A stretch of DNA of 64,000 bases from Vampirovibrionales bacterium (GCA_029262635.1 JAJCZA010000002.1:62001-126000); one strand, 5' to 3'. Positions 29,153 through 50,903 are shown, counted from the stretch's first letter. Made by a program: numbers and translations. The notes: a model not told the origin generated them from the letters alone.

Positions 29153-30148
29153 ATGACCATCAAATCAAAAGCCTTATCCGGAAGTAGTTTAATGGAGTAT
29201 GCCTTGCCGATGGCTGTCTTCTTTTTAACGGGCGCCGTGGCTCTTTTAAGCGGTATGCCAGACATTTTTCAGACTTATTTTTCTGATTCGCTCAAAGGAA
29301 CCCAATCGGGTGATTCGGTTGCGGTCGTAGCTTATGGAGCTGTGGAACAATTGCCGGCACTTTATTCATCGCCCACATCGTTGGGAGCCCCGCCTCCAAG
29401 CATAGATGGGACGATCCTCGGGTTTGATCTCTCCGATTATCCGACGGATTTGTTATCAAGCATTGAAACAACCGGTGGAAACGGAACAACAAAGATTTTG
29501 TTGGCGACCTTGCAAAAGTACGTTGAAGAGCAAGTCGCTGCTGGTAAAATGAGCGTAGAAGACTCTCAGGCTTTGATTCAACTGTCAAATCAAGGGCATA
29601 AAATGGCCGAAATAGAAAAGCTTGTTGAGGATCGCTATGCGAATTCAAGTGGTTATGGAGAGTTCATGAAGCCCATTGCTTATGGTGGGGTTGTTTACTC
29701 TAATCCGAGCGAGTTGCTTGACGCGACCTTGGGCTGGGTTGGAGATGATGGCCGAGCGGATAAGCTGGTTGCCAACGATGAAATGTTAGACCCTTATGCC
29801 GATCAAACGAATCCGAACGTGTGGCAAATTGGAAACGAGACCCGAGAATTCGCGAAAATTTATCAAGAAGCCAAGGCGGCCGGACTGTTAAGTGATCCAG
29901 AAACCGATCTGGTTGTGACGGCCTTGGCCAAGCAAATTGCACTATTGAGCGGAACCATTCAACAGGGACCTAGTTATGTCGCAAATTGGGAAGACTATGC
30001 AAACGAGGTTCCTTACGAAGACGTGTTTAGCGTTGTGGTGGCCTCAGAAATAACCGATATTAACTCGGTCGGGATTTGTGCCGCTAACAATGGAAAAGAT
30101 AGCGGAGCTAAATGTAAAAAAGATAAAAAAGATAAAGACGATGACTAA
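29153..30148 (+). CDS. Large Flp-pilin-like protein, copy 1
   Basis: ATG 29153 has GAGGGAAAG upstream, so I prefer it over 29099. The 331-aa product begins with a short basic leader, then LSG^SSLMEYALP followed by a long hydrophobic helix and GMPD. This fits a class IVb (Flp) prepilin: Gly before the cut, Glu at +5, Tyr at +6. The large C-terminal domain ends with ITDINSVGICAA, a second Cys and a Lys/Asp tail. Normal Flp pilins are about 50-70 aa, so this is a much larger pilin-like protein. It heads a three-gene array. Confidence 0.75.
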   Translation: MTIKSKALSGSSLMEYALPMAVFFLTGAVALLSGMPDIFQTYFSDSLKGTQSGDSVAVVAYGAVEQLPALYSSPTSLGAPPPSIDGTILGFDLSDYPTDLLSSIETTGGNGTTKILLATLQKYVEEQVAAGKMSVEDSQALIQLSNQGHKMAEIEKLVEDRYANSSGYGEFMKPIAYGGVVYSNPSELLDATLGWVGDDGRADKLVANDEMLDPYADQTNPNVWQIGNETREFAKIYQEAKAAGLLSDPETDLVVTALAKQIALLSGTIQQGPSYVANWEDYANEVPYEDVFSVVVASEITDINSVGICAANNGKDSGAKCKKDKKDKDDD

Positions 30149-30213
30149 GTAGGATCATGATGCCTAGTGGGTGTGAGTCAAAAGTGGTTACAGGTGCATT
30201 TAAGGGAAAATTG

Positions 30214-31212
30214 ATGACCGTCAAATTAAAAGCTTTATCAGGGAACAGCTTACTGGAGTATGCGTTGCCGATGGTTGCCTTTTTTCTGACGGGTACCATG
30301 GCTCTTTTGAGTGGTATGCCCGATCTTCTGCAGGCTTATTTTACCGATACGGTTAAGGGGAACTCCTCGAGCCATTCGGTTGCTATTGCTGCCTATGGAA
30401 CCGTTGGAGCGGCGGCGCAAGTGCTAACACCCTCCTCACCAACGGAAACGGAGCCTGAAACCGAAACCCCGAACTTAGATGAGCCTCCTCTTAATGAGGA
30501 GGAAAGCATCAGTTTCGACTTATCCGATTACCCGACGGATCTGTTATCAACTATTGAAACAACCGGTGGAAACGGAACAACAACGCTTTTACTCTCGATC
30601 TTGGAGCGATATATTGAGCAGGAAGTTGCCGCAGGTAACATGACCGAGGAAGATTCTCAGATACTGATCCAACTGGCCAATCAGGGGCATAAAATGGCTG
30701 CAGTTGAGAAAATTGTTGAGGATCGCTATGCTAATTCAAGTAGTTACGACGAATTTTTGCAGCCGATTACTTATGACGGGGTTACTTATCCCAACCCGAG
30801 TGATTTGGTTGATGCAACCTTAGGCTGGGTTGGGAGTGAGGGTAACCCGAGTGGCCTGATTGCCTACGATATCATATTAGACCCTAATGCCGATCAAACG
30901 CACTCGGGTATATGGGAGATTGGCGGAGAGACACGAGAATTCGCAAGAATTTATCAGGAAGCCAAGGCCGCTGGGCGATTAAGTGATCCCACAACCGATC
31001 TGGTTGTGACCTCCCTGGCCGAGCAGATTTCAATGCTGAGTGGAACCATGCAACAAGCTCCCAATCATATGTATGTCGGTATCTTTCCAGGGACAGTTCC
31101 TTACGAAGATGCGTTTAGCAAGGTGATAGCATCAGAAATCACTGATATTAACTCGGTCGGGATTTGTGCGGCTGACGGTGGGGAGGATAGTGGCGTTCAG
31201 TGCAAAAAATGA
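30214..31212 (+). CDS. Large Flp-pilin-like protein, copy 2
   Basis: ATG 30214 follows TAAGGGA and gives 332 aa. Leader LSG^NSLLEYALP again shows the prepilin pattern. After the helix comes an acidic/Pro/Thr-rich linker (ETEPETETPNLDEPP), then a domain closely similar to copy 1: DYPTDLLS, ETTGGNGTT, QGHKMA, RYANSS, ETREFARIYQEAKAAG. The end ITDINSVGICAA with a second Cys is conserved. Its stop overlaps copy 3 by 4 nt. Confidence 0.75.
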   Translation: MTVKLKALSGNSLLEYALPMVAFFLTGTMALLSGMPDLLQAYFTDTVKGNSSSHSVAIAAYGTVGAAAQVLTPSSPTETEPETETPNLDEPPLNEEESISFDLSDYPTDLLSTIETTGGNGTTTLLLSILERYIEQEVAAGNMTEEDSQILIQLANQGHKMAAVEKIVEDRYANSSSYDEFLQPITYDGVTYPNPSDLVDATLGWVGSEGNPSGLIAYDIILDPNADQTHSGIWEIGGETREFARIYQEAKAAGRLSDPTTDLVVTSLAEQISMLSGTMQQAPNHMYVGIFPGTVPYEDAFSKVIASEITDINSVGICAADGGEDSGVQCKK

Positions 31213-32147
31213 TGATAGTCAGATTAAAAGCTTTACCCGGGAACAGCTTACTTGAGTACGCGTTGCCGGTGGCTGTTTTTTTTCTGACGGGTGCCCTGGC
31301 TCTTTTGAGTGGTATGCCCGATGTTATGCAGGCTTATTTTACGGATACGGTTAAGGGAACCCAATCGGGCCATTCGGTTGTCATTGCAGCCTATGGAAGC
31401 GTTGGAGCCGCGGCGCAAGCGCTAACATCCTCCTTACCACCAGAAACGCCTTCTTCGACGGGTAATGTTCAAATAATAACAGCGAACGGCACAACGATTA
31501 ATCTGGAAGGCTATTCTCCATTGTTTTCCGACTCTATCGAAACCACGGGGGCCAATGGAACAACACTTAGCTTGTATTCAAGCCTTATGCATATTGCTCA
31601 AGAGTTGGAGTCAGCCGGTGAAGTCGATGCTGCTCAAGCTAATTTGCTTCGAGATTTGGCCAATCAAGGCCATCGAATCGCTGAAATTGAAGGACTGATC
31701 GAAACGGCCGCTCAGCAAGCCAGTAGTGTCGCCGAGTATAATTCAGTTGATCTTACCTTTGATGGTCAAAGCTATAAGACTTTTGAACTGGAGGCGTTAC
31801 TAGGCTGGAGTGCCAATGGTTCCGCCACACCTGAGAATATTTCTTCCAATGCCTTAGATGCCACTGGAGCAAGCCCTGAAACCGCCACGTTTATTGCTCT
31901 TTATGAGTCCGTCCTTGCCTCAGGCGCATTGGATGATCCAGCTGTTATGGGCATCGTTACGGGGCTTTCGGGCGAGATCGCTTATCTCACCGAGCTGACC
32001 GAACATGCTTCGGCACTCGTTGGCCGGGAAGAAAAACCGTTGAGTGAATTTAATTCAACCATGGTTTCCGAAACAACACATTATGACTCTGAATTGATTT
32101 GCAATCAGGGTAACGGAGCAGAGGATACCGGGGTCTCTTGCCCTTAA
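31209..32147 (+). CDS. Large Flp-pilin-like protein, copy 3 (diverged)
   Basis: ATG 31209 lies inside the ATGA overlap with copy 2, indicating translational coupling. The 312-aa product has LPG^NSLLEYALPV, a long hydrophobic helix and GMPDVMQAYF, so the N-terminal 45 residues match copies 1-2. The C-terminal domain keeps ETTGANGTT, a helix with NQGHRIAEIE, and a two-Cys end (ELICNQGNGAEDTGVSCP), but is otherwise diverged. Such a protein would be processed by a prepilin peptidase and displayed as pilus subunit or adhesin. Confidence 0.73.
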   Translation: MMIVRLKALPGNSLLEYALPVAVFFLTGALALLSGMPDVMQAYFTDTVKGTQSGHSVVIAAYGSVGAAAQALTSSLPPETPSSTGNVQIITANGTTINLEGYSPLFSDSIETTGANGTTLSLYSSLMHIAQELESAGEVDAAQANLLRDLANQGHRIAEIEGLIETAAQQASSVAEYNSVDLTFDGQSYKTFELEALLGWSANGSATPENISSNALDATGASPETATFIALYESVLASGALDDPAVMGIVTGLSGEIAYLTELTEHASALVGREEKPLSEFNSTMVSETTHYDSELICNQGNGAEDTGVSCP

Positions 32148-46417: not shown

Positions 46418-47401
46418 CTAGCCGCCAGTAAATTCAAAGCTTGGCGGCAAAGCACACAGGTTTTGATTCGCACAGAACACCGCATGATGAAAGGTTCGAA
46501 TCCCGGTGATTTTCGTTGGTTGAGGGTCTAATTCAATGCCACGCTGAGTGCCAGCACTGCCCACCACCATGTAATCATGAACCCCGTCATCGACGAGCCT
46601 GATGGCCGCGCCCTTTTTCACATTCTGATTATAACCAAAGCCTGTGCCGCCCAAATCGATGTAAAAGTCACCATACAGAACACGGCGAACCCCAAAGCCT
46701 GGGTAGTTTCGGTCGGCAACAATGGAGTCGGGGTTGAAGGCTTTGGCGACCCCCCCAATGTCGTAGCATTTATTATTACTGCATAATTCAATTAAAACGC
46801 CATGGGTGCCTCCTCCCGATGCTCCAACGGAAAGGAACATATCGGGTCCCGGCCCATCGACGATCGGCGGGTCGGTGTTTAAAACCCGGTAGTAAGGGCC
46901 TGTTTTTGTATTGATGGTAAAACTGTCAGGATCCACGTTAGTCCGGGCATGTCGTGCTGTGGCGGTGGCTTCAATCGTATAGTCTGAAATGCCAATAAGA
47001 GCCAGAAAAGGCGTCGGAACAGTGGCAGTGGCTTCAAGGGTTACGGTTTGTTGAGCGTCGTCCATGGTGGGTGCTCCCCCCACGAGAGTCGCTCCAAAGG
47101 ATGTCATGGCCGGGTTGGCCGCAATAACATTGTCAAAGGTTGTCTGGGCCGATTGCTTCGCCAATGCGGAACTGAGTAAGGGTTCACCTGTCGCCGGATC
47201 AAATGAGTCAAAATAGGCCGCTGCACCAGCACCTGCCGCTGAGGAAACCGCATTTTGCAATTCGTTTTGAAGGTAGGCATTGAGTCCCGTATAAATGGCA
47301 ATGCCTAAAAACCCGAGTAAGGCGGTGAGTAAGACCACCAGAATGGATAAAGCGGATCCTTTTTTGCTTTTTTTAGAGTAAGAGGAAATGTGATAACGCA
47401 T
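46418..47401 (-). CDS. TadG-like protein
   Basis: ATG 47401 gives 327 aa; the frame is open to 47455. The N-terminus KKSKKGSALSIL followed by a long hydrophobic helix and NAVSSAAGAGAAAYFD is the TadE/TadG N-terminal form. The C-terminal part has several Cys (CSNNKCYD, FCANQNLC) and Asp/Gly-rich stretches. It is likely an exported minor pilus component. It lies 20 nt after the TadE-like gene, same strand. Confidence 0.7.
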   Translation of the reverse strand: MRYHISSYSKKSKKGSALSILVVLLTALLGFLGIAIYTGLNAYLQNELQNAVSSAAGAGAAAYFDSFDPATGEPLLSSALAKQSAQTTFDNVIAANPAMTSFGATLVGGAPTMDDAQQTVTLEATATVPTPFLALIGISDYTIEATATARHARTNVDPDSFTINTKTGPYYRVLNTDPPIVDGPGPDMFLSVGASGGGTHGVLIELCSNNKCYDIGGVAKAFNPDSIVADRNYPGFGVRRVLYGDFYIDLGGTGFGYNQNVKKGAAIRLVDDGVHDYMVVGSAGTQRGIELDPQPTKITGIRTFHHAVFCANQNLCALPPSFEFTGG

Positions 47402-47421
47402 TGTAGGGGGATCCTTTGGAT

Positions 47422-48141
47422 TTATTGAAAAGTAACATCCGCTGGCGAATGCCATGTATCCGTACAGCCACCCAGTTGGTTTACGGGCGCAATGTGAGCG
47501 GCGAAAAGATCTTGTGTTGCCTGTGCTCGGCAGGCCCCATCACACCCACCTACGGTTGTTGCCTGATCAAAAACGGATAAATCCGGTGTACAGTCCAATG
47601 CGATCGGGACATAAAGGGGGACATCGGATTGAAAACTGTAGTTAGCAGGTAGAATAGTTTGTGCGGTTTGTGGTGTGGCCGCATTATAAGGGGTTCCAGC
47701 TGGCCCAAGCCCTGTTTCACCAACATTAGTCGCCATTAGGTTGCTTTTGATTCCTTGAGTGATCGTAAAATTGAGCGTTGGGAATAAGGGGAAATCGACC
47801 GCTTTTTCTGCGATTATAACGGCGACCGGTTCTGTGGTTTGTGTTAAGCGAACCGAGTCAACGGTTGTTCCCGGAATACGAAAAGTCCCTGTATTATAAG
47901 CGTTAACCGTTGATTCAAAGTCTGCCAACGGGGTTTCAGAATTTGCGTAGGTTGCCTGACTTTGCAAAGCGGTACGTACGGAAGAAGAGGCATTCGCGCC
48001 CGTGTACATCGCTGCGCCAGCCATATAACTGGCGAACATTAAAAAAACGAGGATGGGCAGCGTCAGTGTAAATTCGATGAGCGCCTGTCCTTGACGAGAG
48101 TTTTCTCTTCGCTTAAGTTGCCGGGTCTGTGTTTTTTCCAT
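47422..48141 (-). CDS. TadE-like protein
   Basis: From ATG 48141, 239 aa. The N-terminus has RQG^QALIEFTLTLPILVFLMF: Gly before a possible cut and Glu at +5, as in TadE. The remainder is an extracytoplasmic domain with a Cys-rich end. TadE-type proteins are minor pilins of Tad pili. Shares the operon with the genes on either side. Confidence 0.75.
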   Translation of the reverse strand: MEKTQTRQLKRRENSRQGQALIEFTLTLPILVFLMFASYMAGAAMYTGANASSSVRTALQSQATYANSETPLADFESTVNAYNTGTFRIPGTTVDSVRLTQTTEPVAVIIAEKAVDFPLFPTLNFTITQGIKSNLMATNVGETGLGPAGTPYNAATPQTAQTILPANYSFQSDVPLYVPIALDCTPDLSVFDQATTVGGCDGACRAQATQDLFAAHIAPVNQLGGCTDTWHSPADVTFQ

Positions 48142-48274
48142 ACATATCACCGTCTAGATCTGTCTCTTTCTTCTTCAATAACTTATCGACTCTTATTGGG
48201 GAGACTTTATTTTTTAATCCGGTTGTTACATAAAATTTACATTGGAAGCTTTATCATGCTGGGTTTTTGGAAAA

Positions 48275-48677: not shown

Positions 48678-48872
48678 CTAACCTGCAAGAGCACCTTTTA
48701 GAGCGGCTTGCACACTATCAATAGCGGCTTCAATCTCACCACCCAGAAGGGTTAAGGCGGCAATAGAAACAACAGCAATCAATGCGAGAATCAAACCGTA
48801 CTCGGCTAAAGATTGTCCTTTTTCAGATTTTTGTGCGCTCAATGCTTGAAATTTTACAAATGCTTTTAACAT
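48678..48872 (-). CDS. flp: Flp-type pilin
   Basis: This 64-aa protein has a basic leader, SEKG^QSLAEYGLIL at residues 16-28, and a hydrophobic helix ending in LLGGEIEAAID. This is the standard Flp/Tad major pilin form, and the size is normal. It is the likely major subunit of the Tad pilus. Confidence 0.92.
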   Translation of the reverse strand: MLKAFVKFQALSAQKSEKGQSLAEYGLILALIAVVSIAALTLLGGEIEAAIDSVQAALKGALAG

Positions 48873-49056: not shown

Positions 49057-50715
49057 TTATTTTTTTACTTCGAATTTTTCTAAGGGTATATTTCTAAAAA
49101 AGTCATCCACGGTGAGAGGCGAACCCCCCGTCTCAAAAGACTTTTCTTTTGGGACGAGGCGTGTAACGTCTATTATAGATGTTGCTGAGTAAAGTACGGC
49201 ATTCGTATCTTGGTACTGTTTATGCCAACGGGGCGAGTGTTCGATTTTATCAAAAAAAACCTTGTTGACGGTTCGGTTATTAGGAACCAACAAATGGGTT
49301 GTCCCATATTTTAAGGGAATTTCTAAATCATGAGGCGGTGTGGCAAAACGCATAAAATCCTGGAAGACGGACAGAGGGTAGAGCACCTCGAACCGGCCAT
49401 CCATGGCTACTTTCATATTAGGGTACAAGTTCCAGTACAGAAACTCTCCCCACACAAATGTGGACCACAGATTGCCCTGAACATGATGCTCCTTAAGGTA
49501 GTTCACGGCACCGATAGGGTAGCCCATCCCGCGCTGATCCGAAACGTGAACTGAAAAGGGTTGAGGTTTTGTTATGCAAAACATAAAAACCATGTAAGAG
49601 GCGGAAATTAATAATGCCAAAGGGGTCAGGTAATAGGCAATCGCCCGGAACCGTTTTCTATTTACGCCGACTGCTTTTACCGAGCTCCATAATGTCTTGG
49701 GAAACGATAGTTGAAACCCGACGCCAAGCACAGTGATTACAAAAATAGGAACCAATTTGTAATGTAGTAAGCCTTCCAGTCCGGTGGCAAGAATCAGTAA
49801 GAAAACACGAGGAAATGTTTTAAACCCTTGATTTTTCCAAGATAAAAATGAGGAAATACTCCAAAATAAAAAGCAAACGGTATAAAAAATCCCGTAAAAC
49901 GGTTGAAAAGGGGGAAGGCGATTTGAAAAAACAGAATCCCAGTCCACGATATCGCTTCGATCCAGAAACCAGAAAGTCCAGATGTGTTTAATATAGTTAA
50001 CCCCATAGGGGGTTAACAGGATGGTTATAAAACATAGAAAGGCAATAAGAATAAGGCATTTTGCCGACAGACTTTTTCTCGGGGCCGTTGTCCTGTGGAT
50101 CAGTGCCTCCATAAAGTAGATGCCCAATACAAAAAAGCCGACAATAAACCCGCCATGGGTATTGACCCAGAGAAGAAAGAGTAGGGGCAGGCCAACAATA
50201 AACCGCTTTTTTCCGCTGAGTCGCCATTGTTCTAAAAGTAAGAATAAAATTGCCAGAAAGAAAAAGGTAAAATTATGCGCCCAGAGTGTGGGCATATAAA
50301 GCGTACACATGAGGAGAGCCAGTAAAGGGAAAAACAAGGCGAATAAAAGCTCTTTAAGAGGATTGCTTTTTGAAGGCAATTGTTTCAAGGCCAAAGATAG
50401 AGGGATGCCGAGCGCGCACCCATATAAAACAAGCTGGAGCCAAAACAGGCTGGAACTTCCTGCGTTTTTAGTCAGGCCGTAAAAAATCATGCCGGCGCCC
50501 CACTCATGGTCATAAACCATCTGATGGGGTGCCGTATAAGAAAAAACATCCCGATAAGGAAATTGTCCATTCGCCTCGAACAGCGCTCCGAAAGAAAAGT
50601 GTCCCCACAAATCTGGATGGGCCGTGTTATTTAACAAAAACAGATACATGACCGCAAACAGTGCCGCTATGAAATAAATCCATCCAAAATGCAGATGACG
50701 AAACCGTTCTAGCAT
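49057..50715 (-). CDS. Probable GT-C-like membrane glycosyltransferase
   Basis: From ATG 50715 (frame opens at 50730), 552 aa. It has about ten to eleven hydrophobic segments and an external loop with AHPDLWGHFSFG near residue 33, and YDHEWGAG, resembling the Asp motifs in GT-C enzymes. A soluble C-terminal domain follows (about residue 400 onward). Substrate is unknown. It lies next to the pilin genes and might decorate pilins or surface glycans, but this is only a guess from location. Confidence 0.55.
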   Translation of the reverse strand: MLERFRHLHFGWIYFIAALFAVMYLFLLNNTAHPDLWGHFSFGALFEANGQFPYRDVFSYTAPHQMVYDHEWGAGMIFYGLTKNAGSSSLFWLQLVLYGCALGIPLSLALKQLPSKSNPLKELLFALFFPLLALLMCTLYMPTLWAHNFTFFFLAILFLLLEQWRLSGKKRFIVGLPLLFLLWVNTHGGFIVGFFVLGIYFMEALIHRTTAPRKSLSAKCLILIAFLCFITILLTPYGVNYIKHIWTFWFLDRSDIVDWDSVFSNRLPPFQPFYGIFYTVCFLFWSISSFLSWKNQGFKTFPRVFLLILATGLEGLLHYKLVPIFVITVLGVGFQLSFPKTLWSSVKAVGVNRKRFRAIAYYLTPLALLISASYMVFMFCITKPQPFSVHVSDQRGMGYPIGAVNYLKEHHVQGNLWSTFVWGEFLYWNLYPNMKVAMDGRFEVLYPLSVFQDFMRFATPPHDLEIPLKYGTTHLLVPNNRTVNKVFFDKIEHSPRWHKQYQDTNAVLYSATSIIDVTRLVPKEKSFETGGSPLTVDDFFRNIPLEKFEVKK

Positions 50716-50903
50716 ATCTACTCGTCTCAACCCTTAAAAATCGCTTGTGACCCTATTATAGCGGTTTGCGCAAGTGGGTGATGAAACGGTCACAGAAAAA
50801 TCCTACAGGCATACGAGGGTAAGCTATATGGGTAATAGGCAAACCTTAAAAACTGCTTTAAAATAAAAGGGTTATTTATGAGAGAGGGGTTTTTCACGAA
50901 CGG

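Follow-up and report, generated by a model that had tools for sequence, protein, structure and literature searches.

Probable large Flp-type pilins with a predicted tethered helical domain, including a chimeric gene copy, in a Vampirovibrionales genome

Three adjacent genes on the plus strand of a 64,000-nt stretch of DNA from a Vampirovibrionales bacterium (the whole stretch analysed, hereafter the window) encode large proteins with the N-terminus of an Flp pilin. Our preferred reading, to which we assign a probability of about 0.6, is that their products are display pilins, a kind of minor subunit of a Tad (Flp) pilus. The first-pass annotation of the window had described adjacent genes of 331, 332 and 312 aa, and the three ORFs were indeed intact, with copy 1 at 29153-30148, copy 2 at 30214-31212 and copy 3, a chimeric gene, at 31209-32147. 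Copies 2 and 3 did share the described 4 nt (ATGA, 31209-31212), and an alternative start of copy 3 is possible at 31212. Protein identity was 65% between copies 1 and 2 and 39% between copies 1 and 3. Scanning for promoters and terminators did no better than on shuffled sequences, and searches with the three proteins in Pfam and NCBIfam returned nothing usable.

All three copies have a basic leader ending in Gly, followed by S/N-S-L-M/L-E-Y-A-L-P and a single hydrophobic helix; the Gly at -1, the Glu at +5 and the Tyr at +6 were all as the annotation had claimed. The leaders lie at 29153-29182, 30214-30243 and 31209-31241, which places the start of the mature protein at a Ser (29183) in copy 1 and at an Asn in copies 2 (30244) and 3 (31242). 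The mature window proteins are 301-322 aa long and include a confidently predicted helical domain, unlike the short Flp pilins, which have been described as very small and lacking the usual globular domain (PMC11067988). In copy 1, the pilin helix corresponds to mature residues ~3-37, the linker to ~32-88, and the helical domain begins at approximately position 29447.

A Gly, four residues, Glu and Tyr before a hydrophobic stretch (GXXXXEY) is the published Flp consensus (PMC5430801). We counted this motif in ORFs that had been recruited solely through a C-terminal domain model and whose upstream part was intact, and found G-x4-E before a hydrophobic stretch in 53 of 55, with Tyr (42) or Met (7) as the commonest residues at +6. 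By comparison, among 121 other ORFs of these loci with a hydrophobic helix at the N-terminus, only 21 (~17%) had G-x4-E, in a control set that itself contains genuine pilins. The Glu at +5 was the sole invariant column among 39 divergent sequences, although the rows of this alignment were trimmed at the motif, so that the unbiased count is the 53 of 55. One of the two exceptions was truncated by a contig end and the other was a two-domain fusion with Lys at +5. The fusion (L040:14351-15919, in genome G002) has two tandem C-terminal domains, one Flp-like helix and the sequence GQPLFKY; it may be an altered member of the family or one that is not processed.

A profile built from the large proteins alone, searched against 177,635 PDB sequences, matched the Flp pilins 8u1k (PilA, E 3.2e-5) and 8u2b (E 1.5e-4) across profile columns 2-38, and the only remaining match at E < 1 was a chitinase (0.68). 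As the profile picked out Flp pilins within the PDB, a generic hydrophobic helix is an unlikely source of the match. Searching 382 genomes of the class with the same profile gave matches outside the family of the window's genome that were nearly all ORFs of 53-112 aa, aligned to the first ~50 profile columns, that is, ordinary Flp pilins; two long ORFs outside the family gave weak matches that aligned away from the N-terminus. Pfam Flp_Fap had no match to the window copies and matched nine of 39 family members (best E 4.6e-4). The large pilins thus lie below the gathering score of that model, as does the ordinary small Flp pilin of the genome, and since single window copies miss Flp_Fap, the N-terminal homology is visible at the profile level only. 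Together, the PDB and class-wide profile matches and the motif count bore out the earlier assignment of a Flp-type prepilin N-terminus, and we consider this region of the large pilins, judged by sequence, to be homologous to Flp pilins.

The AlphaFold model of copy 1, made with 39 family members, had helices at residues 3-23 and 26-37, a disordered stretch at 32-68 (pLDDT < 50) and a helical domain from approximately residue 90 (pLDDT mostly > 90), with two short strands flanking the region of the C-terminal cysteines. The N-terminal helix is therefore modelled as a separate element before a flexible linker, in keeping with the annotation. The C domain of copy 3, when modelled alone, was predicted with a pLDDT of 88.8 and a pTM of 0.87 and had short strands in addition to helices at 21-50, 56-85, 138-153, 159-187 and 193-215. 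The linker is rich in Pro (11.7% versus 2.9% in the domain) and Thr (12.5% versus 7.4%). The sequence blocks ETTGxNGTT, NQGH and an IC close to the C-terminus, noted earlier in the window copies, were kept family-wide, and two cysteines near the C-terminus were invariant in a 37-row alignment of the C domain; such a pair would suit an oxidising compartment.

Foldseek comparison of both models with the PDB, and comparison with viral models (BFVD), gave no match at E ≤ 0.001, and the best-ranked matches had low TM-scores; where we refer to the absence of a known fold, the comparison is with these two collections. What had been annotated as a large domain thus stood as a confidently predicted helical structure but acquired no Pfam or PDB fold match. 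No vWA match was found in the window proteins (Pfam) or in the models (Foldseek against the PDB), and no TadE or TadG sequence match in the window copies and family members (Pfam). A beta-strand pilin domain directly after the helix was also absent from the AlphaFold model, in which the disordered residues 32-68 are followed by helices.

The machinery that such pilins would require is encoded in the genome. The window itself contains, on the minus strand, a small Flp pilin gene (48678-48872; 64 aa, GQSLAEY) that is a candidate for the major pilin and that matched an HMM of the large-pilin N-module with an E of 1.6e-12; against Flp_Fap its E value was 3e-7, under the gathering score. Adjoining it on the same strand are genes for a TadE-like minor pilin (47422-48150) and a Tad (TadE/G-like) minor pilin (46418-47455). 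A 557-aa protein without a Pfam match (49057-50730, minus strand) also adjoins the small Flp gene. Two Tad loci, L118 and L119, were found on contig C5. The first has genes for RcpC, a secretin, a ParA/TadZ-like protein, a CpaF-type ATPase, two T2SSF proteins, TadE and a 105-aa Flp-like ORF, and the second has genes for RcpC, a secretin, a TadZ-like protein, an ATPase and two T2SSF proteins. There is also an ATPase/T2SSF pair on contig C4, and C26 and C22 each have a single T2SSE gene; by their gene order, we take all of these to be type IVa machinery. One prepilin peptidase was detected, a PilD-type enzyme with A24_N and A24 domains (L071:9220-10257), approximately 10 kb from the first Tad locus. 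The genome therefore has the peptidase on which the annotation depended, as well as two Tad loci. Homologues of the large pilins next to Tad genes, for which the annotation had proposed a search, were not seen: the surveyed loci had no tad operon or other common neighbour, and the only conserved neighbourhood was the ordinary synteny of three Vampirovibrio loci. The lack of linkage to a tad operon, of a recognised binding fold (PDB and viral models) and of a Flp_Fap match in the window copies count against the large proteins being display pilins.

The C-terminal domain was present in seven of the ten genomes of the window's GTDB family, with 1-17 copies each. An eighth genome (G005) encodes two tandem large Flp-type proteins of the same layout whose C part is more diverged and was missed by the C-domain model. 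Searching 58 related genomes with copy 1 identified three more loci in its own genome (contigs C29, C18 and C28) and matches in six more genomes, all from this family, and none in other families. A seventh own-genome copy (L135:597-1616, on G000:C31) is very diverged, with a leader that ends in EG followed by KSLTEY. In all, the C-domain model recruited 62 ORF segments, namely six in the window's genome G000 (seven with the C31 copy), 15 in G002, seven in G004, one in G006, eight in G007, 17 in G008 and eight in G009, a public MAG labelled Vampirovibrio sp. from the same family; as the segments came from the surveyed loci and include fragments, these are approximate gene counts. Members of the family are mostly 20-35% identical to one another. 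Across 386 genomes of the phylum, the C-domain model matched the own genome and gave one marginal match (E 5.8e-4), a scan of the whole collection with copy 2 found no relative, and plasmids gave no match to the large pilins. Based on the class (382 genomes) and phylum (386 genomes) searches, the domain is confined to the window's family and is not general to Vampirovibrionia.

Tandem copy number varied at orthologous loci: two loci had either three copies or one, and a third had several, four or two. Tandem arrays were seen in G007 (L052:2725-9900, ~7 genes) and G009 (L070:1843-5729, ~4 genes), where the motif is mostly GSTATEM, with Met at +6, and near-identical stalks precede differing C parts. 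In further large Flp-type proteins (L055:6368-7444, L055:14325-15356, L058:2159-3253, L048:14795-15601 and L120:8164-10075), the N-module was joined to C-terminal regions outside the C-domain model; the stalk looks like a general carrier. Another multicopy pilin set in Vampirovibrio was seen in G006 (L122:14525-16217 and L126:5241-6671), where several proteins of 200-240 aa have a prepilin N-terminus of type IVa-like sequence (GFTLAELLI).

Copy 3 had been annotated as a diverged duplicate, and it is better described as a chimera, with a stalk near that of copy 2 and a C-terminal domain from another paralogue. Its N-module (31205-31445), comprising the start, leader, pilin helix and beginning of the linker, was 86% identical in DNA to copy 2 (30207-30447) over 244 nt that begin four bases upstream of the start codon, and identity to copy 2 then dropped to ~20% at ~31445-31465, inside the linker. 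The C-module (31445-32147), which comprises the remaining linker, the helical domain and the stop, was 88% identical in DNA and 93% in protein to a segment of the paralogue on contig C29 (G000:C29, L033 9044-9746), the similarity extending from 31445 as far as the stop codon. The N-terminal part of the C29 paralogue had no detectable DNA similarity to copy 3, and over its N-terminal ~80 residues copy 3 differed from copy 2 to the same degree as copy 1 does. In the C-domain tree, copy 3 and the C29 paralogue were joined with 100% support, and a single clade of copies 1-3 was rejected (p-AU 0.0035). The N-module tree grouped copies 1-3 with 98.8% support, and an AU test on this short module disfavoured a pairing of copy 3 with the C29 paralogue at p 0.07, above formal rejection. 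Based on the jump in DNA identity and the AU test of the C domain, copy 3 is, by its sequence, a chimera that joins a stalk to the display domain of another paralogue.

Similar discordance was observed elsewhere in the family. Two of three tandem copies in G004 had N-modules that were 91% identical and C-domains that were 35% identical, in the G007 and G009 arrays the corresponding values were up to 98% and 30%, and in a G002 pair the N part was the less similar (31%, versus 60% for the C part). Such patterns could have come about by gene conversion of the stalks in an array or by the movement of domains from one locus to another, both of which represent recombination in or near the linker. 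Purifying selection acts on the C-modules, with dN/dS of 0.06 between copy 3 and the C29 paralogue (dS 0.55) and 0.26 between copies 1 and 2, which indicates working genes; for two mature proteins compared over their whole length between genomes, dN/dS was 0.11 and 0.23.

Joining of a constant N-terminal pilin part to alternative C-terminal parts is a feature of the PilV shufflon of IncI-type plasmids, in which the C-terminal segments are inverted by a recombinase. PilV adhesins have been described on a plasmid pilus (PMC9045228). In contrast, the large pilins show only fixed recombination of paralogues, and as the cluster has no long inverted repeats and only two imperfect ones of 14 nt, programmed inversion of the shufflon kind was without support.

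These observations suggest how the large proteins may work as display pilins. The short basic leader would be cut after the Gly by the sole detected PilD-type peptidase, as the motif implies. The first ~37 mature residues, which are homologous to a whole Flp pilin, would then pack into the Tad filament among the small Flp pilins. The Pro/Thr-rich linker of ~50 residues, predicted to be disordered, would tether outside the filament or at its tip a predicted domain of ~225 residues that is mostly helical and has the conserved Cys pair. As a flexible linker would hold the domain off the filament, packing need not be disturbed, and the geometry of the modelled linker is no less compatible with lateral display, along the shaft, than with display at the tip.

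Compared with the Flp/Tad (type IVb/IVc) pilins 8u1k and 8u2b, the large pilins are alike in leader, G-x4-E-Y, helix and first ~37 mature residues, but have ~280 extra residues that form the disordered linker and the helical domain, and are orphan multicopy genes with recombination between stalk and domain. They also resemble TadE/F/G and the KilL/M/N tip pilins of Myxococcus xanthus, which are likewise large and prepilin-type, with paralogous versions in a predator and variable distal domains, but which have a beta-strand pilin domain and form heterotrimers (PMC12075869). Caulobacter CpaL similarly combines a prepilin-type N-terminus with a large domain and has been proposed to act at the Tad pilus, but contains a vWA/MIDAS domain besides a pilin-like beta domain, while the large pilins have no fold match (PMC12607857). 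The Myxococcus adapter Flps KilK and KilO are Flp-type minor pilins, and kilO lies outside the main kil cluster; unlike the large pilins, KilO is 59 aa, fully helical and without a display domain (PMC12075869). Bdellovibrio, also a predator, has orphan Flp genes outside its tad locus that are needed for predation and that are described as short pilins, again unlike the large pilins (PMC5430801).

As a sub-case of display pilins, the large proteins could be tip-complex pilins in the narrow sense that replace or join TadE, TadF and TadG, with few per filament and one specificity per pilus, as in the Kil tips. In a predator, the predicted tips of Tad pili do consist of large pilins that vary in their distal domains (PMC12075869), CpaL, also large, is a minor pilin predicted to sit at the tip (PMC12607857), and the many paralogues per genome would fit. 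Even so, we regard this arrangement as somewhat unlikely because known tip pilins carry a beta-strand pilin domain after the helix, where the large pilins have a disordered linker, and because they have no TadE or TadG match and the window has separate TadE/G-like genes at 46418-48150. The 'tip' and 'adhesin' roles of the large pilins, both raised by the annotation, are ones that we infer, and the second does not follow automatically since Bdellovibrio flp mutants lost predation but kept attachment (PMC5430801).

More doubtful is that the proteins are prepilin-peptidase substrates that stay outside the filament, with the Flp-like helix as a pseudopilin-like inner-membrane anchor and the domain in the periplasm, for envelope sensing or as an assembly factor. 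Orphan genes distant from tad operons, one hydrophobic helix followed by a soluble domain, and the lack of a known adhesin fold (Foldseek) would all agree with this. However, a plain anchor would need neither the Glu at +5, the mostly Tyr at +6 nor the Flp-specific similarity that are retained here, and the spread in copy number and the domain swapping suit surface-exposed proteins better. We think it improbable that the Tad machinery acts as a secretion system that releases the large pilins as effectors or enzymes. A role in delivering killing activities has been proposed for Tad-like systems of Myxococcus (PMC12075869), but no enzyme or toxin domain was identified (Pfam, NCBIfam, Foldseek), and the C domain has no invariant polar set that looks catalytic, as its two Cys alone are invariant. 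Chance carriage of G-x4-E by type II membrane proteins unrelated to pilins, a motif that the ~17% background shows can arise in other N-terminal-helix ORFs, is refuted, as far as sequence can do so, by its near-complete conservation among such divergent proteins and by the Flp pilin profile matches.

In the literature covered, with subscription papers and preprints mostly outside its scope, no Flp pilins of this kind were found for Vampirovibrio or Melainabacteria; the V. chlorellavorus genome paper discusses a T4SS and type IV pili without using the word Flp. Among Tad minor pilins, large ones have been described before (KilN, TadG and CpaL), all with a beta pilin domain; the new element is a Flp-type helix to which a large helical domain is tethered, present in many copies that have recombined. 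Up to ~17 versions of the domain are kept per genome, and their sequences show diversification through tandem duplication, divergence and the exchange of modules, with stalk and display parts joined within the linker. Recombined halves between copies suggest diversified, surface-displayed domains carried by pili.

Returning to display pilins, the likeliest use of such domains, a weaker part of the proposal, would be the recognition of diverse prey, host or other surfaces. Prey or host recognition would be the most natural reason for a repertoire, by analogy with the Kil tips (PMC12075869) and with an algal predator in the lineage, Vampirovibrio chlorellavorus, the one species of the family that has been studied, for which predation is documented (PMC4451040), though not for the window's genome. 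Other surface uses may be biofilm formation, kin recognition or phage evasion. We advance only tentatively, at somewhat less than even odds, the fuller proposal of a pilus-borne modular recognition repertoire, in which one lineage of the Vampirovibrio family would have made the Flp pilin a general stalk for a new fold, with stalks and ectodomains swapped among up to ~17 paralogues per genome to diversify prey or host recognition.

The C domain, confidently predicted and with no structural relative detected in the PDB, is a target for structure determination. Tad pili have been proposed to be customised at the tip by TadE/F/G-type proteins (PMC12075869). If our reading is correct, a Flp helix bearing a diversified ectodomain would be a second route by which Tad pili are functionalised, and the large pilins would be concrete candidates for the means by which the algal predator Vampirovibrio touches or selects its prey.
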